Source: Paludibacteraceae bacterium (GTDB lineage Bacteria; Bacteroidota; Bacteroidia; Bacteroidales; Paludibacteraceae). From it: a stretch of DNA of 64,000 nucleotides. The stretch lies in contig CAJOIZ010000002.1 of NCBI GenBank assembly GCA_905234835.1, positions 40,351 through 104,350 on the forward strand, given 5' to 3'. Below, piece after piece: positions 22,142 to 64,000 of this stretch (position 1 is the first letter of the stretch; the number at the start of each line of letters is the position of its first letter). The translations under genes were made by a program, and so were the position numbers. Under the pieces are notes generated by a model that ran no database searches, was not told where the DNA came from, and worked only from the letters and a program-made list of their open reading frames with translations.

Positions 22142-23560
22142 TTATTGAAGACGAACGCCCTGTGCGTTGTAGCGGATGCCGTCACGAATGATAACGATGC
22201 GGCCTTCTTCGACAACTTTTACGACTTTCACCTCTGCTTCTACCTGGTCAACAGCAGTAGGAGTAGCGCCAAGACGGTAGAGCGTGAGAGGTCCGCCTGT
22301 ATTCTCTGCGTAGCAGGCAAAACCATACGTATTATTATTACGCAGCCACTTGTTGCCAGAGTCTTGGGAAGAAGCAGCACGAGCTACATTCTCAAACTCG
22401 TAAGTATTGGCTTCGGTGACGGAGATGTTCCACTTGGCGTTGTCGGTCGTAGCGTCGTCTAACAAGGTGCCTTTGTTCTTGGCATCCGTGCTGGCAGCGT
22501 ATTTGCCTGTGCTCTCGTTGAAGAGTGTCCAGTGGTCACCTGCAGAAGCAATGTGCCAGATAATGTCGGCTGCGGGATCAACCAATACTTCTCCTGAAAC
22601 AGTAAACGTAGCGACATCAAAACGGTTCACTTTCTCTTGCTTAGCGTTCTCCTGGATGAAGGCTTTCATTGCGTATTCGCCATAGGTGATTACGTAGTCA
22701 CCTTCAACAACTTCACCTGACATCTTCACGAAGCCACCAGAAAGGTCAGCAACATTCAACTTAACTGATACCTGAGCGGATACATTGTCCGCTTCGGACT
22801 TGATGGTTAGGGTCTGGCTGTATTTGCCTTCCGTAGCGGGATTGGCAGTGATGGTCAGTTTGTCGCCACTCTCAGCGAGTGAACCCGATACGCTGAACGG
22901 TGAAGCCAATGCCGTATAGGTTATCTCGCCCTTCAGATTACCGAAAGAAACAGTGATTTCCATCGAAACAGCCTTGTCACCAACGGCTTTGGTGCCGAAA
23001 TCAGCAGCGGCAGGCGTAACGTTAATAAACGGAGCGGTTGACACTTGGAGCTCATACACGGTGAAATTATGTCCGTAGCTGTCTATATTCGATTGCGCAT
23101 AAGCCTTGTAGCCATTGGAGCCTTCGGAGGTCTCACCGAGGAAACGGTCAGCGTTGGAGACGTTGGTGATAGTAGCCTCATCGCCATCGAATGTGAATTT
23201 CCAACGAGCACTTGCATCGTTAGACATCGTAATGTCGGTCTTCTTGGAGGGGTTGCCGAGGAAGATGTGACCTGTAGGATCATCAGCGTACTTCTTTTCG
23301 TTACGGATAGCAAAACCTTCGATATTGTCTCCGTCCAGTTTCCATACGTAGTCCTCTTTACCAGTCAGCGCGGTTGTCTGGTAGTCATCCGTAGCCTGTA
23401 GAACTTTGTTAACGAGCGAGGAGCAGAGAACGTGGTCGTTGCGCTCGAACACATAGAGACCGCCGTCCTTGACCTCGGTCACCTTGACGAGGCTGTACTG
23501 TTGGGCCGAAAGAGTGCCCATTAGCAGCAAAGCTGCTGCGAGAGTAAACAGTTTTTTCAT
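22142..23560 (-). CDS. Secreted hypothetical protein with short C-terminal NG/IIRDG...YNAQG motif
   Basis: Signal peptide MKKLFTLAAALLLMGTLSAQQ; C-terminus VVEEGRIVIIRDGIRYNAQGVRLQ. Confidence 0.75.
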   Translation of the reverse strand: MKKLFTLAAALLLMGTLSAQQYSLVKVTEVKDGGLYVFERNDHVLCSSLVNKVLQATDDYQTTALTGKEDYVWKLDGDNIEGFAIRNEKKYADDPTGHIFLGNPSKKTDITMSNDASARWKFTFDGDEATITNVSNADRFLGETSEGSNGYKAYAQSNIDSYGHNFTVYELQVSTAPFINVTPAAADFGTKAVGDKAVSMEITVSFGNLKGEITYTALASPFSVSGSLAESGDKLTITANPATEGKYSQTLTIKSEADNVSAQVSVKLNVADLSGGFVKMSGEVVEGDYVITYGEYAMKAFIQENAKQEKVNRFDVATFTVSGEVLVDPAADIIWHIASAGDHWTLFNESTGKYAASTDAKNKGTLLDDATTDNAKWNISVTEANTYEFENVARAASSQDSGNKWLRNNNTYGFACYAENTGGPLTLYRLGATPTAVDQVEAEVKVVKVVEEGRIVIIRDGIRYNAQGVRLQ

Positions 23561-30767: not shown

Positions 30768-31637
30768 TTACAGACAGAAACAGGGGAAGGACTTGGATGC
30801 AGAGATTAAGAGAGTCAGTTTAATACCGCATAGTATGTTGCTGACAGCGGATGACTCAATGCCCCGATAGAGGAAAGGATTGGCATAAGGGTAGAAATTA
30901 CCGCCTATTACATCGTTAGGATAGGTGACAGGTGCAAGGGTGGTGGCGTTGTCGCCCGCGAACAGCAAACCATAATCAGCGAACAAGGCGACCGCCAACG
31001 AGAAACGGGTATGCCTTACCTGCGCGGGAAACTCAAACCGGTAACCGGCTTCTATAGAGACCGACATCTTCGGCACAGGCCGATAGCGAGTGGCTACCGA
31101 CCTTTTTTGTGTGTCAAAGAAATGGTCGGGCATATTCTCGAACAGCCCATCCCCGTCAATACCTATAAACTCGTCATAGCGTCCTCGTGTCGTCACTATC
31201 GATGTTACAGTCGTAGGCGAATAAAAGACATAGCCAAACCGAGGACCAGCCAACAGGTAAATCCGATGCTTGGATTCGTACCCTACAAGCAAGGCAAGGT
31301 CAGCCTGCACCTGCCTATGGTGTTCGCGAACGGAAGTGAAGTCAAAATACATCTGCATCTGTTCCCACTCTGTGTCACGCATAGGGAATTGGTCAGAGAA
31401 ATCGCTCTGTCGGAGAAGGCTGTACCTGTAGCCTAACTCAGGTCCCATCTGCAATAAGAATCCCGATTCCTCATATCTGTAACCCAGTCCTAATGTGGCT
31501 CCTGCTCCTCCGATAGCGGATATGTTCTGTTCCGCGTACGGTCGCGGTGAGAGAAGAGCCTCCCAGTGTGGTCCCAGGTCACACCACAAGGCGAAGGAAT
31601 GGACTGCAAGCAATATGGTACAAAAGAAGCTGCTCAT
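30768..31637 (-). CDS. Secreted hypothetical protein, probable outer-membrane beta-barrel
   Basis: Signal-like N-terminus and repeated aromatic/Gly beta-strand patterns (ATLGLGYRYEESGFLLQMGPELGYRYS); overlaps the upstream gene by 4 nt. Confidence 0.55.
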   Translation of the reverse strand: MSSFFCTILLAVHSFALWCDLGPHWEALLSPRPYAEQNISAIGGAGATLGLGYRYEESGFLLQMGPELGYRYSLLRQSDFSDQFPMRDTEWEQMQMYFDFTSVREHHRQVQADLALLVGYESKHRIYLLAGPRFGYVFYSPTTVTSIVTTRGRYDEFIGIDGDGLFENMPDHFFDTQKRSVATRYRPVPKMSVSIEAGYRFEFPAQVRHTRFSLAVALFADYGLLFAGDNATTLAPVTYPNDVIGGNFYPYANPFLYRGIESSAVSNILCGIKLTLLISASKSFPCFCL

Positions 31638-34600
31638 TTGACTATCATTTTTTGTATTTCACCATCTGATTCCATCATGTACACTCCCTGTACGGAAGGA
31701 GCCTCTATATCCGTGCCACTCACAAGGACACGCCCAGACAAATCGTAGATTGTTACAAGGATGTCCTGTCCGTCGCGGCGGACTGCGATACGCTGTCCGG
31801 GATACAACAACGTGGGTATAGGCTGCACATCCTCATGCGGCACAGGAATAATGGGACAAGTCGGGATAAAGTAGTCCTCCCCTACTCTGCGCAAGGAAGC
31901 GTGATAAGGATGTCCCATCAAGAGGGTCTTTCCTACGCCGCAATAGATGAAAGACTGCGTTTCGCCCGGCATCTCTCTGCCGTCCACATACCATCGGTAA
32001 GCGTCCCAGAGCCATCCGCCATTGTAACGGCTGTTCTTGAGTGCGAGAACGTTGTTCCATTTCTGTCCGATGACCGTTGAAGGATAGCGCACAAGGAACG
32101 TGAAAGGCATCTCCTGCACATAGGACTTATAGCGTATAGTCAGCAGTCCGCTGTAGTAATCGGGTCGGATGCTGTCGGGAACAGGGATAAGCACCGAGCC
32201 GCTTATATCTTCTGAACTGATACCCGAGAAGCGGCTGTTACCGAACGTTACATCCAAGCGTTGCGGAGGCAGAATAACATTGGATAAGGCATAGTCAAGA
32301 GCCACGTTATAGTCATCGGCACAAAGGTCAGCTACGGGCAATAAGGCGGCAACAAAAGGCGTATCAACAATAGTGAGATGAAGAGTGACGAGGCTGTCGC
32401 AGCCATGGGTAGTAAGAGTGTCGAACTGATAATCGCCGGAAGACGTGTAGTTCCACCCCTTCCACATATACTCTTTGTACTCAATCATCTCTTCTTCCTC
32501 CTTACCGCTATAGTTGACGGTAAGATGCAAGGTAAATACACTATCGCAACCGTACAGGGTCTTATAGTCCTTACGGTAGTCACCTGAAAGAGTATATGTC
32601 TCACCCTGCCAGTCATACCTCTCGCAGGCAACGGCAGTGTCAGGGATATTGTACGACGGTGCGATAGTCAGGGTAAGGTGTTCCGTGCTGTCGCAACCCA
32701 ATGTGGTTTTGGTTTCGTAGGTATATTCACCAGACTCGGTATAGGTCTGTCCGTGCCACGTATAGGAGACGCAGGCTGTGTCAGTCAGCGACACATACTG
32801 CGGGTGAGCAATGGTCAAAGAAAGTTGTTCCACACTATCGCAGCCCGCTGTGGTTTTGCCTGTCCATAGGTAGGTGCCAGACTCTTTGTATTCCTTGTCG
32901 TGCCACGTATAACTATCGCAGACGGTGAAGGTATGATAAACCGTATCTTGCGCAGATGTGTTGACATGGATATGGATAGTGTCGGATGCTTCACAGACAG
33001 GCATAAAGCGTAGGTTGTCCACGGCAAAGTCGTTTCCGCCGCTCGCCTGATTGTAGTTCTGGAGGGATATTGATATATGTGTATTGCTGCCACTGTACCA
33101 TAGTTGGTAAATCTTCTTCCAGCGACAGGTTGTGTAGTAATATCCGTGGCTGCCCGGTATGTTAGCAGTATCAGGATGGTGTATCTGCGTGAACGTTTCG
33201 CCGTTGATATAGAACTGGAGCGAGGCAACATTCGATATTGTAGGAGAGTTGGAGATAGAGGACACTTCGCAGGAGAAGGCGTACCACGTATCTGTTTTGA
33301 CATCCACTTCGGTTTTAAACACGTCGGTGTTCTTGCCTGATGATGCGCCGTCCACGACCATCATCAGTCCGTCATAGGTGCATCTTGCCCACGGACTATT
33401 GACTTGTCGTGGGAAAGACACAACAGAGTACTGTCCCGGGCTGATGTGCATACCAGCTGGCGGAAGGTTCTCCCATGGTTCTATGTATTGATAATCGGAA
33501 TAGAAACCTGTGTTGCCCATTTCAAAGTCGCCATTGATGATGAGGTTGTCGCCGTACTCAGTGTAACTCTTGACGGTGACTTCGTAGGTGTAGTCGCCCC
33601 GTTGGTCAAGGTTGACAATGGGATTGCGGATAGTCTGGTCGTTGAGTCCGTAGCCGCTCCATAGGTAGTAGTCCGCCTCCTTGTCGGTGGACAGTTGCAC
33701 TTCATCGGTATGACAGAGTTCTGTTTCGGATGCCTCAATATGCACTTCACAATCGGGAGCAGCAGAGAAATCTGCTTTAATGGTAAGGCGGTCGGTAGCG
33801 CGGCAGAGCTTACGGAAAGAGAGGTTGTCAATAGCGAAGTCGTTACCTCCTGAGGCAGTCTGCGTGTTGCGCAGGATAATGGGTATGGAGCCTGCCGTCT
33901 CGCCGGAATACCAAATTGTATATAGTTTCTTCCAGTCACAAGCAGTGGTATTCGGCACATGGCTGTCGCCGAGTACCTGGTCTTTGATATAGAATTGCAG
34001 TTGTGGCTGTTTGGTAACTATGTTCGATACGCTGGCTACATCAACCGAAAAGGCATACCAAGTATGCGGTTCGACATTGACATACGAGGCATAGACACGG
34101 TTGTTAGGCGTGGTGGAGCCATCGATGACCATCATATATCCATCGTACTTGCATAGAGGCCACGGTCCATTTACCTGGTTAGGGTATACCACGAGTGAAT
34201 AATGCCCAGCGCCCTTTATGTATATATTTTCGTACCCCTTAAAATAGATAAAGAAGAGGGGATTGCTAATGGCGCTATAGTCCGTCTCAAAGCCTGTGTA
34301 TCCTCCTTCAAAATTTCCGTTCGGGGCGAGGTTAGGTCCCGTTTCCGTGAAAGCGGTAAGTTCCATCGTGTATTCCTTTTCGCCGTCCGTGTCGATGGTG
34401 GCTTTCGGGTTGCGGATGGCAGGGTCATCCAGTCCGTAGCCTGTCCACTCGTAGTAGTCTCCTGCTCGGTCGGCGTTGAGTTGGACCGTGCCAGGTTCAT
34501 GCAAGAAGGTTTCGGATGCCTCAATATGCACTTCGCACGGCTCAACAACGACAAGGTCAAGCACATCGGTGTCGCTAATGTATCTGCCCGAGACGGAGAG

Positions 34601-35146
34601 TTGTTCCCCCTCAAAGGAGTATGTCTCGCCCTTGTCAATATAGACCTCGTGGAAGCGTGCTACCCGTTGCTCAATGAAAAAATTGAAAGTCAGCGTGTGA
34701 CCATGCCATTGCCCTTGAATAACGAGCGTATCACGATATATACCCGGAGCGCAATCCAATTTTAGATAGGGATAGAAGAAATAGCCCGGATACTTACGTC
34801 TAAACACCGCTGCATCCAGTTCTGTCGGAGTGACACGGCAATTTACACTGTCAAGACAAACGATAGGGACAAGGAAATCGGACTTCTCGCCTTTGGCGTA
34901 TGAAAATGTCAAGCCAGTAATGTTATCCTCAGTGTTGCTTTTCACGGCAAAGCAGCAGGCAAACGAAACCGAGGCGTGTTCTGTGTAGCCTTCACGCAGG
35001 ATGTCAGCGGGATAGAAAAGAACCTCAAAAGGGGGCGTGCCTTCGCCATCGTAATCAACGCGGTAATGCTGCGCACTGACAGGCAGCAAGCAACCTATCA
35101 ACAGGGAGAGCAGACAGGTTATCCTATGTAATGAGCGTGTGGTCAT
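31634..35146 (-). CDS. Large secreted multi-domain protein with T9SS type-A-like C-terminal sorting domain
   Basis: Signal peptide; duplicated NGNFE..YTGFETDY modules; four CxSYxWxGxxYxxSGxYxxxxxTxxGCDSxxxLxLTI repeats; C-terminus VTIYDLSGRVLVSGTDIEAPSVQGVYMMESDGEIQKMIVK. Confidence 0.85.
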   Translation of the reverse strand: MTTRSLHRITCLLSLLIGCLLPVSAQHYRVDYDGEGTPPFEVLFYPADILREGYTEHASVSFACCFAVKSNTEDNITGLTFSYAKGEKSDFLVPIVCLDSVNCRVTPTELDAAVFRRKYPGYFFYPYLKLDCAPGIYRDTLVIQGQWHGHTLTFNFFIEQRVARFHEVYIDKGETYSFEGEQLSVSGRYISDTDVLDLVVVEPCEVHIEASETFLHEPGTVQLNADRAGDYYEWTGYGLDDPAIRNPKATIDTDGEKEYTMELTAFTETGPNLAPNGNFEGGYTGFETDYSAISNPLFFIYFKGYENIYIKGAGHYSLVVYPNQVNGPWPLCKYDGYMMVIDGSTTPNNRVYASYVNVEPHTWYAFSVDVASVSNIVTKQPQLQFYIKDQVLGDSHVPNTTACDWKKLYTIWYSGETAGSIPIILRNTQTASGGNDFAIDNLSFRKLCRATDRLTIKADFSAAPDCEVHIEASETELCHTDEVQLSTDKEADYYLWSGYGLNDQTIRNPIVNLDQRGDYTYEVTVKSYTEYGDNLIINGDFEMGNTGFYSDYQYIEPWENLPPAGMHISPGQYSVVSFPRQVNSPWARCTYDGLMMVVDGASSGKNTDVFKTEVDVKTDTWYAFSCEVSSISNSPTISNVASLQFYINGETFTQIHHPDTANIPGSHGYYYTTCRWKKIYQLWYSGSNTHISISLQNYNQASGGNDFAVDNLRFMPVCEASDTIHIHVNTSAQDTVYHTFTVCDSYTWHDKEYKESGTYLWTGKTTAGCDSVEQLSLTIAHPQYVSLTDTACVSYTWHGQTYTESGEYTYETKTTLGCDSTEHLTLTIAPSYNIPDTAVACERYDWQGETYTLSGDYRKDYKTLYGCDSVFTLHLTVNYSGKEEEEMIEYKEYMWKGWNYTSSGDYQFDTLTTHGCDSLVTLHLTIVDTPFVAALLPVADLCADDYNVALDYALSNVILPPQRLDVTFGNSRFSGISSEDISGSVLIPVPDSIRPDYYSGLLTIRYKSYVQEMPFTFLVRYPSTVIGQKWNNVLALKNSRYNGGWLWDAYRWYVDGREMPGETQSFIYCGVGKTLLMGHPYHASLRRVGEDYFIPTCPIIPVPHEDVQPIPTLLYPGQRIAVRRDGQDILVTIYDLSGRVLVSGTDIEAPSVQGVYMMESDGEIQKMIVK

Positions 35147-39959: not shown

Positions 39960-40763
39960 CTAACGAACTATATAGAGCAATGTCTGGTCAAGTTTAGAAG
40001 TCTTGACGTGTACGAGGTAGCAACCCGTAGCCGACTGCGCGGAGAGAGTCATCGTTTCGGACGCATTGGAGAGAGTGCGGAAGAGCAATCTTCCACTCAT
40101 ATCAAAGACAGAAACAATAGCCTGTTCGGTTATAGGCATACCCGTCAGAGCAAGCGTCTGGTTCTTGTCAGCCACATTCGGCACGAGGCGCAGGTTCGCT
40201 CCTTCGGCATCAGTGAGACCCGTAAGGGATATGCGATAGACGGGACTGCGCAACACGATGTCGCAACGCTCTGATTCGGGATTGGGGAAGTTGCACTGGG
40301 CGTAGTATTCGCCGCTCGGCAGTCCGTCACGGGAGAGGTAGTAACCGGTGGCCACCAAAACATCGTCGCCTCCACCTGCGGCAATAACATTGTCAATCTC
40401 ACCGATTACGCGGTACCAACGCACTTCGGAGGCAATGGGTTCGTAGCCGATTCCCTTGAGGGCGTTGCGATTGAGAACGTACATCTGCGAGAAGAGGTAA
40501 TCAACGGGGAGGATGTACTGCGCATCGCAAGCAGAGATAAAGAGAGCCTGCAGTTCCATCGCCCGTGTGACTTCAACGCGTCGGGGGTTGTCGGTATTGC
40601 CGTCCGACCAACTGACAAAACGGTAGTCGGGTTCGGGTGTGGCGGTTAGAATGACAATCTGTCCGCAGTGAAGTCCGCTCTGCATCCACTCATCGGCGCG
40701 GACAGCACCGAGAGAGAGAAGCATCAAACACAATATAACAAGCCGTTTGGGCAAGGTAAACAC
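39960..40763 (-). CDS. Secreted protein with InlB B-repeat-like domain and T9SS-type CTD
   Basis: CGQIVILTATPEPDYRFVSWSDGNTDNPRRVEV; C-terminus VSVFDMSGRLLFRTLSNASETMTLSAQSATGCYLVHVKTSKLDQTLLYIVR. Confidence 0.75.
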   Translation of the reverse strand: MFTLPKRLVILCLMLLSLGAVRADEWMQSGLHCGQIVILTATPEPDYRFVSWSDGNTDNPRRVEVTRAMELQALFISACDAQYILPVDYLFSQMYVLNRNALKGIGYEPIASEVRWYRVIGEIDNVIAAGGGDDVLVATGYYLSRDGLPSGEYYAQCNFPNPESERCDIVLRSPVYRISLTGLTDAEGANLRLVPNVADKNQTLALTGMPITEQAIVSVFDMSGRLLFRTLSNASETMTLSAQSATGCYLVHVKTSKLDQTLLYIVR

Positions 40764-44783: not shown

Positions 44784-47700
44784 TTATTGTTGAACTTTCT
44801 GACCTTGTGCATCGTACATCACATTGTCTTCGGTAATGATATAGAGTTTACCGTTGATCATGTGCTTACGTGTGCCTACAGCCGAGCCGTTCGATACGGA
44901 TTGGATGATGGTACGCCATTCACCACCGCACTCTTCATTGCTGGTTGTAACGATGCTGATAACAGCGTAGTAAGTGCCATTGGGCAGAGGCTCATTCTCA
45001 AATTTGTCAAGTGCAGTCAGGTAGTAACCACCCGTTCTAACGAGTTCATCGTTATCCGGATCGGGCGTAGCACCCTTCATTCTGTACCACTTAACCTGCT
45101 TGTCGGTTTCGTCACCTTGTACGAGGTTGAGATCCCACTGTTTGTTGATGGTAACGAGGTCAATGATAAGCAACCAGCCGTTGTTGTACGGATCAACAAG
45201 AGGCAGAGTAGTTACCTGATCACCCTTAGCATCAGGAGCATCTACTGTGAGAGTCTGAGTAGCAGTCTGCGACTTGAGAGTTGCATCGCAAGTGCTAACA
45301 GCTTCCGCATAGAACTTAACGGTCTTGCCCTTCTCCATCTTAGTTGCGCCATCGTAAGCCTTGAAGCCGTCGCCGAGGTCAACATAGATAGTAATATTGT
45401 CTGTTACACCAGCAGCGTCAAACGCAGCCTGAATCTGTTTTTCTACAGCCTTATCATCGTACGGGAGTCCGCAGTATGCTTTGCCCCAGTCGAGAGTGAG
45501 GGTAGTCATATCAAATGCGTCATCGCAGCCTTTCTCTACGGGGATATTCCAGATAGTATCCACGATAAGAGCGGTTTCGCACTCAGTGTATACGGTGTAA
45601 GCCAGACTGATCTGAGTGGTCAGCGTGAGGTTCTCCTGCAGAGCCTTAACGTTCTCGATAGGACGGAAGTCAAGCTGGTCAGGATCTACATCATAAGCTT
45701 CCCAAACAATGGTGTCGTAAGCAGCGAGCGAGTCAGCAGCTGTGAGAGTGGTGTAGTAGTTCTTGAGGAATGCATCGAATGCAGAGTAGTCAAGTTTTTC
45801 ACCAGCTTTCGCAACAATCTTGTCAGCGTCAGCCACGGTGCTGTAGTCGAACGCGGTAGCAGCCTCCATAGGAGTAACTGTGAAGCGGTAGATAGAGTCA
45901 ACGAGGATAGTACCGGCACGTACGGAAACGGTATCGTTCCAAGCGAGGGTGGTAGCATCCTTAGCATCGATAGTGTGCTTAATAACTGTAGTAGTCATTA
46001 CGTCGTCATATACTTCGCCGTCGCAAAGAGTAAGAGCAATGTCCTTGAAGCAGATGCTATCGGGCAACTCATCAATGAAGTCAGCACGGATATACATCGA
46101 AGCTTTCGGAGTGCAGAAGTTAACAACGATAGAAGTGGGGTTAACGGACGTGATAAGGTCACGGTCGATAACTTTCGTCTTGGTCTCGTTGGGCTCGAAG
46201 GTGTATTGTCCGTCACCAAGCGAGTGTTCTTTGCACTCGAAGCGGAGATCTGCACTTGCAGATACCTTCTGGTCAGAGAGGTTAACAATAGTGAGTTGGA
46301 GGTCTTTGCCTTCGGGGATACGAAGTTCTTCTACTTCCTTACCGTCAACAATCTTCGTCTCAAGCATTGCAACGTTGTACCAGAGGCAAGCACCTTGCGG
46401 GTTGGTGTTACCGTTCACCCAGTCGAAGTCGATGGGGTTAGCGCACTCGTCACCCTTGCTGAGGTGCATCTCAACACGGAAGGACATTTCTTTCTCAGAA
46501 GTAACACGCACGTAAACTACATCCTTGCCTTCTGCCGAATTGAGCAACTCACGGCTGAAGATACGAGTGTACTTGTCGTTACCTTTGAGAATCATGCTCT
46601 TGGTAGTCATTTCATACTCAACGGGGCAAACCCAAGCCAGTTCAGCGGTAAGGGTGTTCTCTTCGCCCGAGAGCTCGTTCACAATGAGAGTAGCGTCACC
46701 AGAAGTGTTCTCACGAATCTCCTTGAGGTTGATCATATACCATACGTTGGTGTTGATACCCTGTTTGTAATCGGTATTAACCGCGAAACGAACAGCATCT
46801 TCACAAGCGGTGATAGCCGGATCAAGTTTCTCGCGAGCAACAATTTGCATCAAGAGGTTCTGAGCCTGAGCTGCGGTGAGCTGCAGATATACCCAAGGAG
46901 TATTGAGACCCATCAGAGCTTCAACCATGATGGCTTTCTCTCTCTTGGCGTTAGCACCGATAGTGGCATTGCCAGCAATGAGTTGTTCACCTTCGCAGTC
47001 AGTGTAAACAGCTGCATGAACAGCACCAGCCTTAGCGTCCGTATTGGTGAGACTGAAGATGAGTTTGTCGTTAGCGTGGTTAGCGAGGAGGTCAGCTACA
47101 TTGAGTTTGTACCAGAGGGTCTTGCCAGCTTCGTGACCAAGAACCTTACCGTCCTTGATTTCTACAGCGTGCATGCAGTCAGCACCGGTGTTGGGGTCAA
47201 CCATATCAATGCGGAACTGATAGTCCTGATTGCCTTCGATATTAACGTAAACATACTCAATACCCTTAGCCTTAAGCTGATTAACAAGGCTCTGTTCGAA
47301 CAGCTTAGAGATAGTCTGGTTAGCAGCGAACGAGCGAACAACGCTCTGCATTTCCTCAGTAACGGGGCACTCGTAAGCAATCGAACCCTTGATGGACTGA
47401 GCGGTAGCACCGTTGATAACCATTACGCGCGGAGCGAGTTCAGCATCAACCAGTTTGTCCACTTTAATCTTGTACCAAGCGTTGTCACCGGTCTTGTTGT
47501 AAAGCTTATTAACATCCAGGTCGGTAGCAGGCTCACAAACGGTGATCGGTGTGAACGGATCAGCGTCAATAATAGAAGCCTCGAAGTGGAACTTCTGAGT
47601 AGAGGTCAGACGAATATAAACCTTCTCACCGAAGGACATGAATGTCGAACGTGCGATATCTTTCTCACGTACTTGATTTGCCTTGAGAGCGAGAGACTGG

Positions 47701-49817
47701 CTTTGCGGAGAAGTGCAGGGGCACTCAGGAGCCAACATACCGTCGATAACAGCGTCTTTACCAGTGAGGTTCTTCAGGAGAACGTGCACTTTCTTGCCCT
47801 TCGTGTTCTGGATTTCAGTGAGGTCGATAACGTACCAGAGAGTAACGTCAGCGTCCTGGTTGTGACCGGTAGTCCAGTTGAACGGAATAGCTTTCGTGCA
47901 GTTAGCACCTTCGTTCTCAATCTTCTTGTTAAGACGGAAGCTGAAAGGCTGATTACCGTTGAGCTTGATATAGAACTTGTCACCTTTCTGGAGGTTCTTC
48001 ACAAGATCCTTAGCAATTTCTTTCTTGTAAGTACCATTAGCACCGATAGTGAGAGCGCGTTCCTGATTCTCATAGATATCAGGGCACTGAGTAGCCAGTT
48101 CGCCGTGGATAGTGAGAGTCTTGTCGCCTTCGTTGGTGATAATGATTTCAGGAATGTAGTCAGCACCAATGATATTGTCAGCAGGCACTTCGTACCAAAC
48201 GGTAACGCCAGCAGCCTGTTTGTGACCTTCTTCCCAGTTAAACGGAATAGCGTTCTCCAATACGCAAGTTACCAAAGAAGCGTCTTTCAGCTTAGCGGCA
48301 GCAGGAACAACTTCAACCTTAACGGGCTGTGTGGTGGTAACACCTACATAAACCACGTTGGAGCCGAGCATTGCAATAGTAGAATACTTAACAGTCTTGG
48401 ACAAGGGTTTGCCAACTTCTACCTTGCGAGAAATCGTTTCAACATCAATATAGGGGCATTCGAACGCTACTTCAGCGGTAACGTTAGCAGTTGCCTCGCC
48501 ACGGTTGGTGATAGTAACGGTTACATCTTGCGGAGTAGTCTTGAGGTCGGTGATGTCGATAGCATACCACTGAGTAGAAGACTCCTCTTCGAACTCAACG
48601 TCCTGATAAACTACTTCGTTCCACTTAATAGCCTGTGCAGCGGCGCAAGCATTACCTTCACGCATGTGTTTAAGACGTGCAGAAACCTTGATATTCTGGT
48701 TCGCAGAGATACGAACATAAACATATTTGCACTTCTCAGCATCAAGCGATTCGATGATGTTACGTGCGAAATCCATAAAGTCGGACTCACCAGCAACAAC
48801 GGTATCCTTCTTGATGATAACGTTCTTGGTTGCATAGTCATCAACAGACTCGCTGTTGAAAGCAATTTCTACGGTTACAAAAGCAGGAGTAGTATTAGCC
48901 TCGTTGTTGAGGGTAATCTGCGGCTGATTCTTCTTAACCTTAAGGAGTTCAGCAAGCGTTGTTCTGAATACTTGTCCAGCAGCGCCAACAGTGAACTCGG
49001 GAGTGTCGAATGTTACATCAGTGGGAGAAGCGAAGTTGGTTTCCACAGCGGGACCAGCCACTTTCTTAGTGCTAACAGCGATTTCCTTGCTGTTCTCCAC
49101 TTTGAGGTAGAGAGTAGCTTCTGTCATGCTCTGAATAAGAGCAGCAGGGATCTCGTGTACTTTGGATTTCTTGTTGGGGATAGAACCCTTAAGACCTGCA
49201 AGACCCGTGCTGGGGCAGTCAGTAGAAATCATCGAAACGATCTTAGAAGTAGCTGTCGTTGCCGAATAGGTAATCTCCAAGCCTTCATTGCTCTCGCGAA
49301 GAGCATTGAGGTCGATGGTGTACCAGTGCGTACCAGCTGCGAGGCTATGATCTTTGTAATCATAGTCAGTAGCCTTAAGGCAGGCTTCATCAGCAAAACT
49401 TCCTTCATAAACCTTCGCTGCGAGGTGAATCTTCTGAGTGGTGGTCAGTTTAACGAACATGTCGTCATACCCCATCTTCACGAGCATGGAAGCGGAAGAG
49501 TTCCACACCTTGCTGCCGTTACCGACGATGGTGTAGTTGCGCGCTTCCTCTTCACCTGCGATAATCGCGGAGATGTTCACATCCGCGGAACTGGAAGAGA
49601 GGTTCGAGAGGTAGAGGGCGATACTGGGATCGTCAACAGCCTTGAGTCGGTCAGCCAAAGTAACTACATACCACAGGGATGTATTGGCATCCTGGGTGTT
49701 ACCATTGACCCAATCAAACTCGATGGCATTCGCTTTGGACGAACCATCACCCGTTCCGGCTGCAAACCCTGAGAGGGTCATTGTAGCAGCAATCAGAATT
49801 AGGATTAGTTTTTTCAT
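44784..49817 (-). CDS. Giant secreted protein (1677 aa) with about 10 divergent tandem domains and the short C-terminal motif
   Basis: Signal peptide; recurring W-Y-x-(V/I/L)-x-x-x-x-L ... (E/Q)C ... units; C-terminus HMINGKLYIITEDNVMYDAQGQKVQQ. Confidence 0.8.
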   Translation of the reverse strand: MKKLILILIAATMTLSGFAAGTGDGSSKANAIEFDWVNGNTQDANTSLWYVVTLADRLKAVDDPSIALYLSNLSSSSADVNISAIIAGEEEARNYTIVGNGSKVWNSSASMLVKMGYDDMFVKLTTTQKIHLAAKVYEGSFADEACLKATDYDYKDHSLAAGTHWYTIDLNALRESNEGLEITYSATTATSKIVSMISTDCPSTGLAGLKGSIPNKKSKVHEIPAALIQSMTEATLYLKVENSKEIAVSTKKVAGPAVETNFASPTDVTFDTPEFTVGAAGQVFRTTLAELLKVKKNQPQITLNNEANTTPAFVTVEIAFNSESVDDYATKNVIIKKDTVVAGESDFMDFARNIIESLDAEKCKYVYVRISANQNIKVSARLKHMREGNACAAAQAIKWNEVVYQDVEFEEESSTQWYAIDITDLKTTPQDVTVTITNRGEATANVTAEVAFECPYIDVETISRKVEVGKPLSKTVKYSTIAMLGSNVVYVGVTTTQPVKVEVVPAAAKLKDASLVTCVLENAIPFNWEEGHKQAAGVTVWYEVPADNIIGADYIPEIIITNEGDKTLTIHGELATQCPDIYENQERALTIGANGTYKKEIAKDLVKNLQKGDKFYIKLNGNQPFSFRLNKKIENEGANCTKAIPFNWTTGHNQDADVTLWYVIDLTEIQNTKGKKVHVLLKNLTGKDAVIDGMLAPECPCTSPQSQSLALKANQVREKDIARSTFMSFGEKVYIRLTSTQKFHFEASIIDADPFTPITVCEPATDLDVNKLYNKTGDNAWYKIKVDKLVDAELAPRVMVINGATAQSIKGSIAYECPVTEEMQSVVRSFAANQTISKLFEQSLVNQLKAKGIEYVYVNIEGNQDYQFRIDMVDPNTGADCMHAVEIKDGKVLGHEAGKTLWYKLNVADLLANHANDKLIFSLTNTDAKAGAVHAAVYTDCEGEQLIAGNATIGANAKREKAIMVEALMGLNTPWVYLQLTAAQAQNLLMQIVAREKLDPAITACEDAVRFAVNTDYKQGINTNVWYMINLKEIRENTSGDATLIVNELSGEENTLTAELAWVCPVEYEMTTKSMILKGNDKYTRIFSRELLNSAEGKDVVYVRVTSEKEMSFRVEMHLSKGDECANPIDFDWVNGNTNPQGACLWYNVAMLETKIVDGKEVEELRIPEGKDLQLTIVNLSDQKVSASADLRFECKEHSLGDGQYTFEPNETKTKVIDRDLITSVNPTSIVVNFCTPKASMYIRADFIDELPDSICFKDIALTLCDGEVYDDVMTTTVIKHTIDAKDATTLAWNDTVSVRAGTILVDSIYRFTVTPMEAATAFDYSTVADADKIVAKAGEKLDYSAFDAFLKNYYTTLTAADSLAAYDTIVWEAYDVDPDQLDFRPIENVKALQENLTLTTQISLAYTVYTECETALIVDTIWNIPVEKGCDDAFDMTTLTLDWGKAYCGLPYDDKAVEKQIQAAFDAAGVTDNITIYVDLGDGFKAYDGATKMEKGKTVKFYAEAVSTCDATLKSQTATQTLTVDAPDAKGDQVTTLPLVDPYNNGWLLIIDLVTINKQWDLNLVQGDETDKQVKWYRMKGATPDPDNDELVRTGGYYLTALDKFENEPLPNGTYYAVISIVTTSNEECGGEWRTIIQSVSNGSAVGTRKHMINGKLYIITEDNVMYDAQGQKVQQ

Positions 49818-49914: not shown

Positions 49915-51249
49915 TTATTCCTTGCGTTCGACTCCGAGGACGGAAATGCGTTTGTTGTCGTTTATAATATATAAGGTACCATTCTCAATGACTTTGCGGG
50001 GTGCATAGGGGTTAGAGGTTTCATCCAATGCGTCACCGTCGAGGTCAATGACCTGCAAGAGGATATGCTGGGTGCAAGTATTCTTCTTACGGATAATAAC
50101 ATCGTGTTCGCCCATGTGATCCACATAATAGGTCTTCTTATAATACATCGGCAAATCTGACTTGTAGATACGTAGGGTGTCGTGCTTCAATGTCGCGGGG
50201 ATAACATTGACATTGTATGTATAGACGTCCACGGTATCCAAGCTGCGCCAAACAGTGTCACCCGAATAAACAGTGGTTTCCTTGAGGATTGTATCCCTCA
50301 ACTCCAGCGACTTGCCTTCACAGAAAGTGGTATCCATCACTGTCTCCTGCCACTTGATATTGTAACGGAAGCGTACGCGTCCCACATCCTCAGCCTTATG
50401 GCGGAATCGGAAGAAGAGCGTATCACCCGCCGCCTTTGCCTTATTAACGATAGCAGTATCGGGGAAGAAGAGCTTTGTCGAGTCACTCATAGTGCGCGTA
50501 CAAATCAACTCGGGGTTTGCACATGTGCCACGGAGGAAGTCCATTTCGCACGGGAGATTCTTCTTCTGCTGCCACTGAACGAACATCTGCTGGTTCTTGC
50601 GCATATCGGCAGGCAGCCAAGCATAGATATCCTCGTCATGGTTGGTGATATAAGTCATCCCGTTCTTAACCGGGAAGAGGTCTTCACAAGTGGAATGCGG
50701 TCCCTCGTCATAAGCAAAAGCAAGGACACGTCCCTGTCCTCCTTTGAGAGGATAAACGCGTAAGTGAGGCTTCACGATGGTTTCCGCCAGTTCTGCAAGG
50801 TCTCCCATATCGGCAAGCTTGGAGTTAATGAAGTCCACATCAATGTCACGCATTGTATTAGCGCCAACCGACATTGTGTAAGTAGGCTCGGTAGAGGAGC
50901 ACAAAGCATACAATTCAAGGCGGATACCCTTGTCAGAGAACCAATAAGCGGACAGACCGTACTTGAGGTCGGAGACGGTAGCGGAGAACCAAAGAGTGTC
51001 CGTAATTACCGTGTCAAGACCGAAATGGAACTCAACCGTATTGTCCTCGGCACAGTCGCAGTAATAGTAGGGATAGTTGAAGGTTTTCTGAATGAGATCA
51101 CAACGCTCGATTACCTGTTCATCAGGGAGTTGCGAAGGATTGCCAATAGCCTTCTGCGCCAAGAGGAACAGGGGTTGTACGAGCATCAGGGCAACCACAA
51201 ACAGTTGTCTGAAACGTACTCTACGGGATGGATTTTGTATGGATTTCAT
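49915..51249 (-). CDS. Secreted hypothetical protein with short C-terminal motif
   Basis: Start reassigned to MKSIQNPSRRVRFRQLFVVALMLVQPLFLLAQ because the longer ORF runs into a TACTTTTG promoter; C-terminus VIENGTLYIINDNKRISVLGVERKE. Confidence 0.7.
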   Translation of the reverse strand: MKSIQNPSRRVRFRQLFVVALMLVQPLFLLAQKAIGNPSQLPDEQVIERCDLIQKTFNYPYYYCDCAEDNTVEFHFGLDTVITDTLWFSATVSDLKYGLSAYWFSDKGIRLELYALCSSTEPTYTMSVGANTMRDIDVDFINSKLADMGDLAELAETIVKPHLRVYPLKGGQGRVLAFAYDEGPHSTCEDLFPVKNGMTYITNHDEDIYAWLPADMRKNQQMFVQWQQKKNLPCEMDFLRGTCANPELICTRTMSDSTKLFFPDTAIVNKAKAAGDTLFFRFRHKAEDVGRVRFRYNIKWQETVMDTTFCEGKSLELRDTILKETTVYSGDTVWRSLDTVDVYTYNVNVIPATLKHDTLRIYKSDLPMYYKKTYYVDHMGEHDVIIRKKNTCTQHILLQVIDLDGDALDETSNPYAPRKVIENGTLYIINDNKRISVLGVERKE

Positions 51250-51285
51250 TGTGTTTTCGCTGGTTAGAGCCCATAAAAAATCGCG

Positions 51286-51293
51286 CAAAAGTA
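51286..51293 (-). promoter_or_regulatory. -7 element TACTTTTG (minus strand)
   Basis: Plus-strand GCGCAAAAGTAAGC. Confidence 0.55.
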
Positions 51294-58093: not shown

Positions 58094-58149
58094 AAGCGTA
58101 AGAGAAAGAGCAGATTACCGAATGGCGATCTGCTCTTTCTCTTACGCTT
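58094..58149. terminator. 22-bp perfect inverted repeat, bidirectional terminator between tRNA-Glu and the GH13 gene
   Basis: AAGCGTAAGAGAAAGAGCAGAT - 12 nt - ATCTGCTCTTTCTCTTACGCTT. Confidence 0.85.
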
Positions 58150-60632
58150 TATTGTATCCTATTCCCCGAAACAGAATAGACGCTACCGTCTTCACGGATA
58201 ATCCGTAACGTGCCATCAATGATCAGCTTGCGCGTGGACGATACGGATTGCGGGAGGATGTACTCCAAGGAGGTCAGATCCTCATAACTATCGGGAACAA
58301 CGGGTGCAGCAATATACGAACCAGTGAAGACTTTGATTTCGTTGGGCCGCAGGGTGCAGGACTCCGCCGCTTCCTGCCCTCCGTCAAGATAGTCATACCA
58401 CGTGCCTGAAGGCAATGTGACGGTCTGTGATGCCGTGGCAGAAAAGTTACCTACAGCAAACACCTGATTGCTCCATTGAACGCTCTTGATAGCGGCTTTC
58501 TCATTGAGGGACGATGCTGTCGGGTTGCCGGCAAAGACGTGCGGCAAGAGACGCGTACGGAGTTGCAAGATTCGTGCAAGCCGCTGATAACCCTGCATAC
58601 GCGGTCCGGCTGCCATCCACGTTTCAGGACGGTACTTAACGGACATCTTGACTTCGTAATCAACAGTGTTGGTGCCTGTTTCGCTTTTGCCATAGGCATC
58701 GATGCCGTCTGTACCGAAACGTCCCTGCTCGTCCTGGAACTTGGAGAAATCGAAGGCGAGTTCGTCAAAATGGTAGAAGAGTTGGGGACCATTGAGCAGA
58801 CACTGGAGACCAATGACCAACGGAATACGTGCAGCGCGTGACGCTTCGGAAGTCTGGAGGTCACCTGCACCCCACTTTTTGGCTTTGAAGAAGGGACGCT
58901 CCTCATCATGGTTATTGAAATATGATACATAGTTGTCCGAGTTGGCGTCGTTAAGTCCGTCACCCTGCAGCCAAGCACCTGTCGCCTGCTGGAAAACGTA
59001 GGAGGTGTTCTGCCAACACATCATTCCCTGCGAAACAAATTTCGGGCGGTCGGTTCCCATGCTATTGCCCCAATGCTCAAGCATCAGGTACGAGCCAGGC
59101 GAAACGGACTGCATCACATCGTAGTACTCCTTAATATTGGCGGGGGCGTTGTAGGTCTTTCCGCAAAGTCCGTGGCTGAGGTCTAAACGATAACCGTCCA
59201 CCTTGTATTCATCAAGCCAGTAGGCGACAGCGCGGCGGAACATGTCCCTGACAGGTTCAAAATCGTGATTCCAATCCTGATATACATTGTCCGGATGAGG
59301 GGCAGTGACGTTGAAGCAGGGGTTGAACTTGAGGTCGTTGCCGTAGGGATAGAGTTTGTTCATCGGGTTGTTGCCTGTAGCGTGGTTGAAAACCATGTCG
59401 AGGACAACAGCCATTCCGCGCTTGTGACACTCGTCAATGAAGCGTTTGAGCATATCGGGTGTGCCGTAGGCCTTGTCAAGCGCGAAGTAGTGGTTGGGGG
59501 AATAGCCCCACGAGTTGTTACCATCAAATTCGCAGACAGGCATCAGTTCAACGCAGTTAACACCGAGGTTCTGGATGTAGTCAAGTCGTTTGATCAGTCC
59601 GGGAATGTTGCGCTCAGGAGTATGGTCGTATATCCAGAGTTCGTAGATGACGAGGTTGTTCCTATCAGGACGCTGAAATGAGGTAGTGGAAGATGACCAA
59701 GCGTAAGGTGTCTTGCCAGACTGTAAAACCGAGACGTAGCCTTCCGCACCTTTCATAGGATAGGCGATAAGGGATGGGTCTGTCCAGCGGGGTTCATAAT
59801 TATCGTCACCTGTAAGCAGTTTCTCAGAGAAGAGATCGGAGATGAGCATCTTCACTCCGTCGGCACGTACCACGGCATACTGGAAACGGTATTCACGCCC
59901 CTTCTCGATAGGAACAGTAATCCAGAAATAGTTGCCGTCACGCTTCATCTGGTAGTCGTTGTTGAGTTCCCAGTCCGTCATATCTCCGATGAGGTAAACA
60001 TGTTGTGCAGGTACAAGGACGGTGTTGTCGTTGGCAGTCTTGTTGCCTGCAGCGAAGGTGCAGAGAGTAACGGATGTACCATCTTGCGAGTAATATATAC
60101 CGTTGAAGACACCGGCAGGTCGCGCCTGCTCAACGACGGGTGCGAAAACGAAATCCTCCCAGATGGACTCCTTGTTCTCCTTGCCGAGGTAGATGAGGAT
60201 ATCACCGTTGGACGTGGAAGAACTTTTGCCCTGAAGGGAGTTGTTTCCTTGTCCGTTGTGGAAAACCATCACAATAGCAATGATATTTTCCGTAGAGGGT
60301 GCACCGTAGAAGTCGTAGAGGTTGTTGATAGTGAGCGTCCATTTATCCCCCGCTTGGGTCCAAGCTGTTTCCTGCTTCGTACCCCAAGCGTTTTCGGACT
60401 TGATATATTTCCAATCAGTGATGTTGGTACTTTGGTCGGTGATGAGTCCCATGTGGGAGTAACATTCCGTAGCCGTTTTCATACCTCCTGTTCCCTGTGA
60501 CGGGTCGAAGGTAAACTCTATCGCACCAGTATAGCCGAAAGGAATGACTGCGGGATTAGTAGTGACCTGCGCTTTCAGGAGAAAGGCAAAAGACAGGAAA
60601 ACGGGGAGGATGAGGAGTCTGAACGATTTCAT
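58149..60632 (-). CDS. Secreted GH13 alpha-amylase-family enzyme with short C-terminal motif
   Basis: GVNCVELMPVCEFDGNNSWGYSPNHYFALDKAYGTPDMLKRFIDECHKRGMAVVLDMVFNH; DGYRLDLSHG; C-terminus LIIDGTLRIIREDGSVYSVSGNRIQ. Confidence 0.92.
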   Translation of the reverse strand: MKSFRLLILPVFLSFAFLLKAQVTTNPAVIPFGYTGAIEFTFDPSQGTGGMKTATECYSHMGLITDQSTNITDWKYIKSENAWGTKQETAWTQAGDKWTLTINNLYDFYGAPSTENIIAIVMVFHNGQGNNSLQGKSSSTSNGDILIYLGKENKESIWEDFVFAPVVEQARPAGVFNGIYYSQDGTSVTLCTFAAGNKTANDNTVLVPAQHVYLIGDMTDWELNNDYQMKRDGNYFWITVPIEKGREYRFQYAVVRADGVKMLISDLFSEKLLTGDDNYEPRWTDPSLIAYPMKGAEGYVSVLQSGKTPYAWSSSTTSFQRPDRNNLVIYELWIYDHTPERNIPGLIKRLDYIQNLGVNCVELMPVCEFDGNNSWGYSPNHYFALDKAYGTPDMLKRFIDECHKRGMAVVLDMVFNHATGNNPMNKLYPYGNDLKFNPCFNVTAPHPDNVYQDWNHDFEPVRDMFRRAVAYWLDEYKVDGYRLDLSHGLCGKTYNAPANIKEYYDVMQSVSPGSYLMLEHWGNSMGTDRPKFVSQGMMCWQNTSYVFQQATGAWLQGDGLNDANSDNYVSYFNNHDEERPFFKAKKWGAGDLQTSEASRAARIPLVIGLQCLLNGPQLFYHFDELAFDFSKFQDEQGRFGTDGIDAYGKSETGTNTVDYEVKMSVKYRPETWMAAGPRMQGYQRLARILQLRTRLLPHVFAGNPTASSLNEKAAIKSVQWSNQVFAVGNFSATASQTVTLPSGTWYDYLDGGQEAAESCTLRPNEIKVFTGSYIAAPVVPDSYEDLTSLEYILPQSVSSTRKLIIDGTLRIIREDGSVYSVSGNRIQ

Positions 60633-60656: not shown

Positions 60657-62663
60657 TTAATGTATAAGTATGCCCTGAGCATTGTATTCCTGATTGTCAC
60701 GGATGATGACCAACCGCCCGTTACAGAAAATCTTTTGGGCTTTCGTTTCATCAACTTGAATGGCAGGGATGTCTGTGATGGTCTGTCTCGCATAAACGGC
60801 TACAGGCTCCTGCGGCTTCTGATAGGCGGAGAATAGCCGCGAGTGGGAGTTATAACTGATAGTGTTGTGTGAGTTGTTCCCTTGGGCGGTAATCTGTGCT
60901 TCTCCGTCCTCAATGCGAATCGCCCAAGAGGCATCCGCTGTGAGTTGCGACTGTGTACGGAGGTAGTTCTTGCTGGAAGAGGCGGCATAAAGATAACCGT
61001 CCTTCGTATGCAAGCCGAATGTACCATCCGATGTGCCTTGTGTCAGAGTTAGGATCTGCACATCTGTGTTGTTTTCATCCTCAATCTGGATAGCGTTACC
61101 GCTGATGGTAACGGCTGCCTCAGAACGGTTGTTTTTGTTCTGAGTGATACCCAAAGCAACTTGATTATCTTCATTCACAATCAGTATTTCGTCACCTACA
61201 AGGAGGTCTTTCTCATCTACAACGAGAACAAAATCGCGAGAAGCAGCCACCTCGCCCGTCACAACAACTGTGGCAGAAGCCTGCTGACCGTCTGCCGTGG
61301 CTGTAATAACAGCGGTACCCGGACTGACACCTTTAACGGTGCCGCTACTAACTGTAGCTACGGTCGGATCGGAGGATGACCAAGAAGCTATGCGTACAGA
61401 TGAGTTGGTAGGAAGGATGGTTGCATAGAGGGTCTGTCTTTCGTTGATACGGAGGGTAACCGAAGCAGGGCTGACAGATACACTCTCCACAGCGATGTGT
61501 TCTGTCTGAGCGGGTTCGATACCAAAGATAGCATCAAGGTCGGATGAAAACTCATAGCCTTCGTAGTCGAGCGCTGTGATGGCAAAGTGTCCGTTGCCGT
61601 CGCCAGACCATCCCCAGTTGATATGCAGTTTGCCATTATTGTCACGTCCGTCGCACACGAATTCGTGTCCGCCTTCGCCGTATGTGTCATTTCCACCCAA
61701 GATGACGGGACGGCCCTGCTCAAGGTCATCATAGATATAACTGAGTATCTGCGGCGTTTTGACAGAGTATTCTGCCGGTGAGAAATTGGCTACCCCATAG
61801 TCTCTCTGGCTGAGCTGGGTAACAAATTTATCCACATTGTATCCAAAGTACTTAACCAGTCCTGCCGCCATATCATCGGTATAGGCACCGCTCCCTTCAT
61901 CATAGGAATAATCCATATCACAGGCGACTCCGCAATGGAGCATAAGAGTGGCGACCGCCTTTGCCTGGTCGGCATTGTAGGAGCCAGCATAGGACTCGAG
62001 CATATTGTCCCAGTCGTATGGTACATTGAAATCGGCGGAAACAGTCTTTTTCAGTTGTGTACTTGTATAGGAGTGCGAGCCTGTACCCTGTGCCGGGTAT
62101 TTCCACATACGCATCACCTGTGCCGTAGCCGTAGCGACACAGCCGGTAAGCGAACGGTGGGTACCATCAAGAGGGCAAAGGTTGCTGTAGGGTTTCTCCT
62201 GATCGTATTCAATACCACCCAAGAGGGGCTCAACAGGAGTGTAATCCTGCACGGCAGCAGGGGTCATTGCTTCACTTACAGCAGAGACGGCTGCGAGTTG
62301 TTTAGCATATCTCTCCAACCACCAGCGCATACTCGGGTTGGCAGTCGAATAATCAAAATCGCCGTGGTCAGTATAACCGAGGATAGGGAGTGCACGTGTA
62401 TCGGCACTAACGAAGACGGCACCTTGCTGCTGAGGTTGGTTGAAGACGTAATATGCAGTGGTAGTCTGACCCGCGACAGTGGCTGTATAAGCCAGTTGCA
62501 TCTCACCAGCCACAGCAGGTGCTGTACGGCGCGCACGGAGTTGTGTGTGCTGATTGACAAAATGCGCCGCCACTTCGGCAGCCTGTTCAACAGAGCGTTC
62601 GTCCGCCATAAGAGAAAGAACGAACGACAAGGAGAGGAGAATAGAAAAGAGTCGTTTCATCAT
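60657..62663 (-). CDS. Secreted C10 (streptopain-like) cysteine protease with BIG2-like domain and short C-terminal motif
   Basis: Catalytic GCVATATAQVMRMWKYP; GGHEFVCDGRDNNGKLHINWGWSGDGNGHFAI; BIG2: VSVSPASVTLRINERQTLYATILPTNSS; C-terminus IFCNGRLVIIRDNQEYNAQGILIH. Confidence 0.9.
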   Translation of the reverse strand: MMKRLFSILLSLSFVLSLMADERSVEQAAEVAAHFVNQHTQLRARRTAPAVAGEMQLAYTATVAGQTTTAYYVFNQPQQQGAVFVSADTRALPILGYTDHGDFDYSTANPSMRWWLERYAKQLAAVSAVSEAMTPAAVQDYTPVEPLLGGIEYDQEKPYSNLCPLDGTHRSLTGCVATATAQVMRMWKYPAQGTGSHSYTSTQLKKTVSADFNVPYDWDNMLESYAGSYNADQAKAVATLMLHCGVACDMDYSYDEGSGAYTDDMAAGLVKYFGYNVDKFVTQLSQRDYGVANFSPAEYSVKTPQILSYIYDDLEQGRPVILGGNDTYGEGGHEFVCDGRDNNGKLHINWGWSGDGNGHFAITALDYEGYEFSSDLDAIFGIEPAQTEHIAVESVSVSPASVTLRINERQTLYATILPTNSSVRIASWSSSDPTVATVSSGTVKGVSPGTAVITATADGQQASATVVVTGEVAASRDFVLVVDEKDLLVGDEILIVNEDNQVALGITQNKNNRSEAAVTISGNAIQIEDENNTDVQILTLTQGTSDGTFGLHTKDGYLYAASSSKNYLRTQSQLTADASWAIRIEDGEAQITAQGNNSHNTISYNSHSRLFSAYQKPQEPVAVYARQTITDIPAIQVDETKAQKIFCNGRLVIIRDNQEYNAQGILIH

Positions 62664-62754: not shown

Positions 62755-63702
62755 TTATTTCACTTCCACACCTTGTGCATTATAGCGTTTGCCATCGTGG
62801 AGGATGTAGAGAACGCCGTTTACGATAACCTTGCTACCTTCGGCATTGATCTGCATCTCATCAAGTGCAGTAGCACCTGCCTCAAAGGCAACATACATAT
62901 TGTCTCTGCCTTCACCAATAATCTTGATGTAGAGAGTGTACTTACCTGTTTCGGTAACTACATAGTAACCATCGGTAGCAGTGAACTGATAACCTGCTTC
63001 GTCAAGAGCTACCAACCATTCCGCTTTGGCTACATTATCGTAGTTCTTGAATCTGTCGCCTACTGTCAAGGTGGCGGTAACAACGTATTCGGTGCCTTCG
63101 CCCTTATATTCTTCGTTCTTCACACCTGCATAGTAGTCATTATCGTTCACCATAATACCGAAGTCGGGAGTATCATCGCCGGTCGGAATATCTGAAAGCT
63201 GAGCATACCATTTGCCCTCGTAGAAATAAGGAGCAGTGGCGTTCCAAGTCAAGTCGGCAGTCTTTTGCTCACCTTCTCCTACTACTCCGTTGTTGAAGAT
63301 TATATTCACATATTCAACAGCAAACGTATAACTATATACATCAAAACCGTTTACTTGGTCTCCGGTCTTCGTCATTGCTTCACCGGGCCAGTCATTCAGC
63401 ACGTTGTCCGTCTCACCCTCTTTGTACCATACGTAAGCCTTCACAGTCTCCCACTTGTTCGTGTTCACATAGTAAAGAGTAACAGTAGTGGCAGGGGCAG
63501 GGATGTCTTTTGTCTCTGCATACCATTTACCATCGTAGTAGTAAGGAGTAGCGGCATCCCATACGAGGTCAGAAGTCTGAGCCTTGTCGCCGTTGTTGAA
63601 GATGACGTTCACATACTCAGTAGCAAACGTGTAGCTGTAGATGTCATAACCGTTCACTTGGTCGCCCGTCTTAGTCATTGCTTCACCTGACCATTCGTTC
63701 AA
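62755..63702 (-). CDS. C-terminal part of a secreted protein with tandem SBM26-like starch-binding repeats and short C-terminal motif; frame broken at about 63721
   Basis: Repeats TLYYVNTNKWETVKAYVWYKEGETDNVLNDWPGEAMTKTGDQVNGFDVYSYTF; C-terminus VIVNGVLYILHDGKRYNAQGVEVK. Confidence 0.75.
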   Translation of the reverse strand: MNEWSGEAMTKTGDQVNGYDIYSYTFATEYVNVIFNNGDKAQTSDLVWDAATPYYYDGKWYAETKDIPAPATTVTLYYVNTNKWETVKAYVWYKEGETDNVLNDWPGEAMTKTGDQVNGFDVYSYTFAVEYVNIIFNNGVVGEGEQKTADLTWNATAPYFYEGKWYAQLSDIPTGDDTPDFGIMVNDNDYYAGVKNEEYKGEGTEYVVTATLTVGDRFKNYDNVAKAEWLVALDEAGYQFTATDGYYVVTETGKYTLYIKIIGEGRDNMYVAFEAGATALDEMQINAEGSKVIVNGVLYILHDGKRYNAQGVEVK

Positions 63703-63980
63703 CGGATGATCCGTCTCACCCTAGTCTCCCACTTGGTCGTGTTCACATAGTAAAGAGTTACAGTAGTGGCAGGGGCAGGAATGTCTTTTGTCTCTGCATA
63801 CCATTTGCCGTCGTAGTAGTATGGAGTAGCAGCATCCCATACGAGGTCAGCGGTCTGATCCTTGTCGCCGTTGTTGAAGATGACCTTCACATACTTCGTA
63901 TCAAACGTGTAGCTGTAGATGTCATAACCGTTCACTTGGTCGCCCGTCTTAGTCATTGCTTCACCTGACCATTCGTTCAA
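63699..63980 (-). pseudogene. Out-of-frame upstream SBM26-like repeat of the same gene (or an assembly artefact)
   Basis: MNEWSGEAMTKTGDQVNGYDIYSYTFDTKYVKVIFNNG... near-identical to the next repeat; a 25-nt segment is missing at 63721/63722. Confidence 0.6.
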
Positions 63981-64000
63981 CGGATGATCCGTCTCACCCT

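Follow-up and report, generated by a model that had tools for sequence, protein, structure and literature searches.

The described signals closest to the one analyzed here are the C-terminal sorting domains (CTDs) of the T9SS, among which the type A CTD (TIGR04183 / PF18962, Por_Secre_tail) is the canonical form. In Porphyromonas gingivalis, the loss of two C-terminal residues blocks the secretion of RgpB, and the loop between strands 3 and 4 of the CTD (motif B) has a functionally important glycine (PMC11285876), while the signal of HBP35 maps to the last 22 residues (PMC11969387). Shorter CTDs occur in Prevotella intermedia; these comprise 43-55 residues from the cleavage motif to the C-terminus, are cut at PT/GI, and carry, in this order, Y...G (motif B), GxY-I (motif D) and motif E, which is basic (Ye et al. 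2025, PMC11969387). Type B CTDs (TIGR04131) have 150-235 residues and are paired with PorP/SprF genes, and different T9SS signals use different shuttles (PMC12618676). Because of the RgpB truncation and the need of HBP35 for its last 22 residues, a working signal without motifs D and E would be unexpected.

In a 64,000-nucleotide stretch of the genome of an uncultured rumen Paludibacteraceae bacterium, which was analyzed as a whole and is called the window, an earlier note had described six secreted proteins of unrelated fold that end in an alignable short tail, and had read it either as a further tag for sorting or anchoring or as a shortened variant of the CTD. Translation placed all six tails at the extreme C-termini of minus-strand ORFs (Table 1). 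In six-frame scans of the window, an HMM built from any five tails found the sixth with E = 1e-5 to 6e-11, and the next best stretch found with the HMM of all six reached only E = 0.04. The carriers are otherwise unrelated, as had been stated, and include a C10 peptidase, an alpha-amylase, a CBM26 protein and three proteins without a confident family. A signal peptide was visible in five of the six (in ORF 49915-51288 it puts the likely start at 51249), whereas the N-terminus of ORF 62755-63702 was unseen because of the contig end and the frame-shifted CBM26 repeats. From 62755 to 64000, near-identical CBM26 repeats follow one another in a run with a changing reading frame, and the gene at 62755 is probably broken by assembly or by a frameshift. 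Opposite ORF 44784-49817, a stop-free ORF of 1661 codons (44787-49772) was also observed, which is likely a composition effect opposite a 1677-aa gene. The claimed difference of the six tails from the type A-like CTDs at 31634 and 39960 was confirmed: ORF 39960-40763 passed TIGR04183 (cut-off, 23 bits), and ORF 31634-35146, although sub-threshold, has motifs B, D and E visible by eye.

Table 1. C-terminal tails, cleavage-like motifs and CTDs used for comparison in the window.
Feature	Position	Strand	Carrier or context	Basis
Tail 1, KVVKVVEEGRIVIIRDGIRYNAQGVRLQ	22145..22228	-	ORF 22142-23560	Translation, HMM, signal peptide
TAVD, cleavage-like motif	22247..22258	-	38 residues before C-terminus of tail 1	Motif enrichment
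Type A-like CTD, for comparison	31637..31891	-	ORF 31634-35146 (IYDLSGR...GVYMM...IVK)	TIGR04183, 12.3 bits (below cut-off)
Canonical type A CTD, for comparison	39963..40217	-	ORF 39960-40763 (VFDMSGR...GCYLV...)	TIGR04183, 28.5 bits
Tail 2, GTRKHMINGKLYIITEDNVMYDAQGQKVQQ	44787..44876	-	ORF 44784-49817	Translation, HMM, signal peptide
Tail 3, APRKVIENGTLYIINDNKRISVLGVERKE	49918..50004	-	ORF 49915-51288	Translation, HMM, signal peptide, homologues
DALD, cleavage-like motif	50023..50034	-	39 residues before C-terminus of tail 3	
Tail 4, STRKLIIDGTLRIIREDGSVYSVSGNRIQ	58152..58238	-	Alpha-amylase ORF 58149-60632	Translation, HMM, Pfam, homologues
Tail 5, KAQKIFCNGRLVIIRDNQEYNAQGILIH	60660..60743	-	C10 peptidase ORF 60657-62663	Translation, HMM, Pfam
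Tail 6, EGSKVIVNGVLYILHDGKRYNAQGVEVK	62758..62841	-	CBM26 ORF 62755-63702	Translation, HMM, Pfam, AlphaFold2 (predicted three-stranded sheet)
TALD, cleavage-like motif	62860..62871	-	38 residues before C-terminus of tail 6	

For a genuine sorting tag, the earlier note had expected strict C-terminal placement, signal peptides and co-occurrence with T9SS genes. A profile search of the host genome (2.68 Mb in 57 contigs) gave 101 tail matches at E ≤ 1, and among the best 90 of the 101, which were extracted for placement, the stop codon followed 0-15 residues on in 90/90 and 0-1 residue on in 60; no internal copies were seen in the host genome. The consensus of 55 representatives was xxxKxxxNGxLYIxRxGxxYxAQGxxVx, with K, G and G invariant. 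Using a simple heuristic rule instead of SignalP, Sec-type signal peptides were called in 51 of 76 assessable frames, including most of the intact N-termini, and many of the remaining frames were very short or truncated at a contig end; a single doubtful lipobox was the only candidate lipoprotein signal, and none was convincing. Carriers identified by Pfam scanning, which are typical surface cargo, comprised C10 and M6 peptidases, endonuclease I, metallophosphatase, CBM26/CBM77, BspA-type LRR and InlB B-repeat proteins. Many tail genes lie at contig ends (C2, C3, C13, C18, C37, C38, C40, C43, C45 and C55; L039, L041, L051 and L086 among the loci), which suggests that the repeated tail or neighbouring Ig-like/GESG-repeat sequence breaks the assembly there. 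Four frames of 27-48 aa carry the tail with no upstream protein (L052, L062, L075 and L098, at C33:14317, C39:22339, C3:62760 and C9:41948) and are probably decayed genes or frameshifts.

No existing sorting-domain model, which the earlier note had named as grounds for rejection, matched the tail: neither the six proteins nor the 55 tails hit TIGR04183/PF18962, none of the Pfam, NCBIfam and PDB sequences provided a model covering it, no sequence match to the type B CTD (TIGR04131) was found, and a text search for the tail sequence returned nothing relevant. The tail and the type A CTD have in common that they form the C-terminus of surface enzymes and adhesins exported by Sec, that their genomes encode SprA/PorU/PorV, and that a T[AG]xE cleavage-like motif precedes them. 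Within 30 residues upstream of the tail, T[AG][IVLM][ED] was found in 28/84 cases, compared with 1.1% of background windows, and clustered 17-19 residues before NG, although the strict motif is absent from two thirds of tails. The motif lies a median of 40 residues from the C-terminus in tails and 79 in canonical CTDs. In 19/84 (L020, L021, L032, L044, L049, L056 and others), the tail is immediately preceded by a second upstream module, RxRIVxEG...ELEVxNG, instead of the TA[IV]E cleavage-like motif, and this module may represent a different linker or cleavage context.

Profile comparison between the tail and canonical CTDs scored 18.1, above the best of 150 column shuffles (13.4), with modest match probabilities of 14-28%. 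In this alignment, the cleavage motif, NG-LxI and Y..xG were colinear with the first half of the canonical CTDs, that is, a strand, a turn, an LxI strand and motif B. Against an NG-bearing canonical subset, the N-terminal half scored 19.8 and the D/E half 8.7 (shuffle mean, 8.3), but the subset was picked with a tail-like pattern, and therefore the unselected score of 18.1 is the fairer result. The GxY motif D and the basic C-terminal strand of motif E are absent from the tail, in which the protein ends after motif B, and no remnants of D or E were seen when the window was read past the stop codons in three frames. AlphaFold2 predicted three strands (residues 23-27, 30-35 and 38-40) with pLDDT of about 88-91 for the six window tails, following a poorly predicted linker. 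The canonical CTDs of the window reached only pLDDT 57, too poor for superposition, and a fold search with a 48-residue tail model gave chance matches only. By analogy, the invariant G of YNAQG would correspond to the functionally important motif B glycine of P. gingivalis.

Homologous proteins were found to differ in the type of tail. The window amylase (58149-60632) shares 48-50% identity with proteins of two other genomes (L193 and L203 in G486/G496) that end in a canonical CTD, and the alignment pairs STRKLIIDGTLRIIREDGSVYSVSGNRIQ, the end of the window protein, with the first half of that CTD (ITVYPTLTNGVVYLSEQANVTVYNLSGQAIA). For an endonuclease I (L100) and L242, a homologue with 43% identity, the resemblance extends as far as the predicted cleavage region, beyond which the two have different tails; in both families the tail type switches at the same boundary. 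Homologues of the protein at 49915 in G496/G486 (L245 and L223, 31-33% identity) also end in a canonical CTD.

A PorV-based search of named genomes grouped the organism with MAGs of rumen Paludibacteraceae. With uncapped scoring, 42 to 87 tails were counted in each of its nearest named relatives, which come from yak, roe deer and other ruminants; a rectal MAG (26), a partial genome of 0.9 Mb (12) and 'Paludibacter sp.' NALB_7813_3 (9) had fewer, and Prevotella and marine Bacteroidales relatives have 0-2. In an order-wide sample, 12/392 genomes matched the tail at E ≤ 0.001, one of them falsely, through an internal match in a distant genome (L112), which was the sole non-C-terminal case among the loci examined in other genomes. 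In the family sample, 43/150 genomes had the tail, with large numbers only in the genus of the window, where all 13 genomes carry the tail, SprA and PorU. The expected T9SS genes were all present in the host genome, with PorV and PorU adjacent on contig C10 and SprA on contig C23. Such co-occurrence alone proves nothing, because SprA is near-universal in the order (370/392, compared with 12/12 tail-bearing genomes), and it is likewise uninformative within the family (SprA in 144/150 and PorU in 143/150). A PorV paralogue specialised for the tail was also considered and rejected, as tail-rich genomes have 2-3 and tail-poor genomes 2-4 PorV-family copies.

Quantitative comparison of the two signals separated one group of genomes from the rest. 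Eleven tail-rich genomes, which constitute one rumen Paludibacteraceae clade of the genus, have 37 to at least 55 tails and 3-15 canonical CTDs (TIGR04183), compared with 9-10 tails and 39-41 canonical CTDs in their nearest relatives, the other two genomes of the genus (canonical range given for the closest relatives, 39-48), and 0-12 tails and 12-90 canonical CTDs in other genera. Adding tails and canonical CTDs gave a steady sum of about 42-63 for those genomes of the tail-rich clade and of its closest relatives whose tail counts were uncapped. On the PorV tree, tail counts climb stepwise from 0 to 2, 9-12 and 37 or more towards the tail-rich clade (support 99/98), within which canonical CTD counts drop. 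The comparison of tail-rich genomes with the rest gave p = 1.4e-5, a value that describes essentially one evolutionary event because the tail-rich genomes form one clade. The rank correlation between tail and canonical counts within the genus (rho = -0.33, p = 0.27) lacked significance. What carries the signal in the counts is the split of the 11-genome clade from the rest, and the anticorrelation does not amount to 30 independent points. Judged from these gene counts, the tail has largely displaced the canonical CTD in the eleven-genome rumen clade.

The reading of the tail as a sorting signal was supported, and between its two versions a shortened CTD is favoured over an unrelated tag, because canonical CTDs were replaced, tails were swapped in homologues and the tail is similar to the first CTD half. 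We therefore consider that the tail is probably a half-length T9SS sorting signal of ~40 residues, corresponding to the first half of a type A CTD up to motif B. The P. intermedia short CTDs could offer a precedent, of which the tail would be merely a diverged form with B, D and E compacted: the two are similar in length from cleavage motif to end (median 40 vs 43-55), share a PT/GI-type cleavage motif and a predicted three-stranded sheet, and both coexist with long CTDs. Compared with the published motif description, however, the Y...G element is the last in the tail, with nothing after it, and the first in P. intermedia, whose CTDs keep B, D and E and end in motif E; neither the B-D-E order nor the invariant basic residue of E was found in the 90 tails, the D/E half resembled canonical CTDs only at chance level in the above NG-bearing subset, and the setting of the tail is rumen Paludibacteraceae. 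This makes a diverged P. intermedia-type CTD unlikely, and since the short CTDs keep B, D and E by description, the tail represents a different shortening. What appears to be new here is therefore a CTD shortening that ends after a B-like element and is covered by no Pfam, NCBIfam or PDB sequence model. HBP35, with a five-stranded CTD, likewise exemplifies a reduced CTD that still works, but what it cannot do without are the last two strands (D/E), exactly those absent from the tail.

An independent sorting or anchoring tag recognised by a receptor other than PorV, such as a PorP/SprF-type shuttle or a cohesin-like scaffold, would agree with the weak sequence similarity between the tail and CTDs, and the type B CTD, an alternative T9SS signal with its own shuttle, illustrates that different signals use different shuttles (PMC12618676). 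Such a tag is quite improbable given that tails substitute for canonical CTDs on homologous proteins, and that PorV-family copies, the only shuttle family counted, are alike in tail-rich and tail-poor genomes. The length and hairpin fold would also permit a mini-domain for surface retention or glycan binding, carried by proteins that are exported in some other way; its confinement to the C-terminus in 90/90 with no internal copies in the host genome, and the displacement of canonical CTDs by it, render this very doubtful indeed.

For the half-length CTD, the following mechanism could be proposed. An N-terminal signal peptide would direct export by Sec, and the last ~26 residues would fold in the periplasm into a three-stranded sheet (KxIxNG / xLYIxRNG / xYNAQGxxV) equivalent to strands 1-3 of an ordinary type A CTD together with the loop between its strands 3 and 4 (motif B). 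The YNAQG loop, which resembles motif B, would engage the outer-membrane T9SS, SprA and then the PorV shuttle. PorU would cut within the flexible linker, near T/[AG][IVL][DE], and link the mature protein to a glycan at the surface; what we infer, then, is that the tail proteins are secreted, bind PorV, are cleaved by PorU and become anchored. In an ancestor within the Paludibacteraceae, some CTDs may have lost everything beyond motif B, after which the short form would have spread over most cargo of one rumen clade and displaced the full-length CTD. We regard it as about an even chance that a naturally truncated CTD, made up of only its first three strands plus the motif B loop and lacking the D/E motifs regarded as essential in P. 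gingivalis, is enough for a protein to be exported by the T9SS and processed by PorU, and that this CTD has taken the place of the full-length signal throughout the clade's secretome.

One half of the signal may then be enough, even though the far end was thought indispensable, and the two lineages would provide a natural test of which CTD part is the real export signal, with P. gingivalis pointing to the last strands and the tail lineage to the motif B loop. Current annotation overlooks the tail proteins: TIGR04183 alone predicts 14 T9SS cargo proteins in the host genome, and the tail raises these to over 100, so rumen Paludibacteraceae would, if the reading is true, export far more polysaccharide-degrading and adhesive proteins via T9SS than recognised. 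Protein engineers would also gain a very small tag for T9SS export, as the signal has 26 residues. Outside the family, a genome of a different family in the same order (G271; loci L104, L115, L120, L124 and L128) was found to carry a variant of the tail, KKYxENGxLIIEVxGVKYDVTGRVVK, in at least seven copies, and the tail is therefore not confined to one family.
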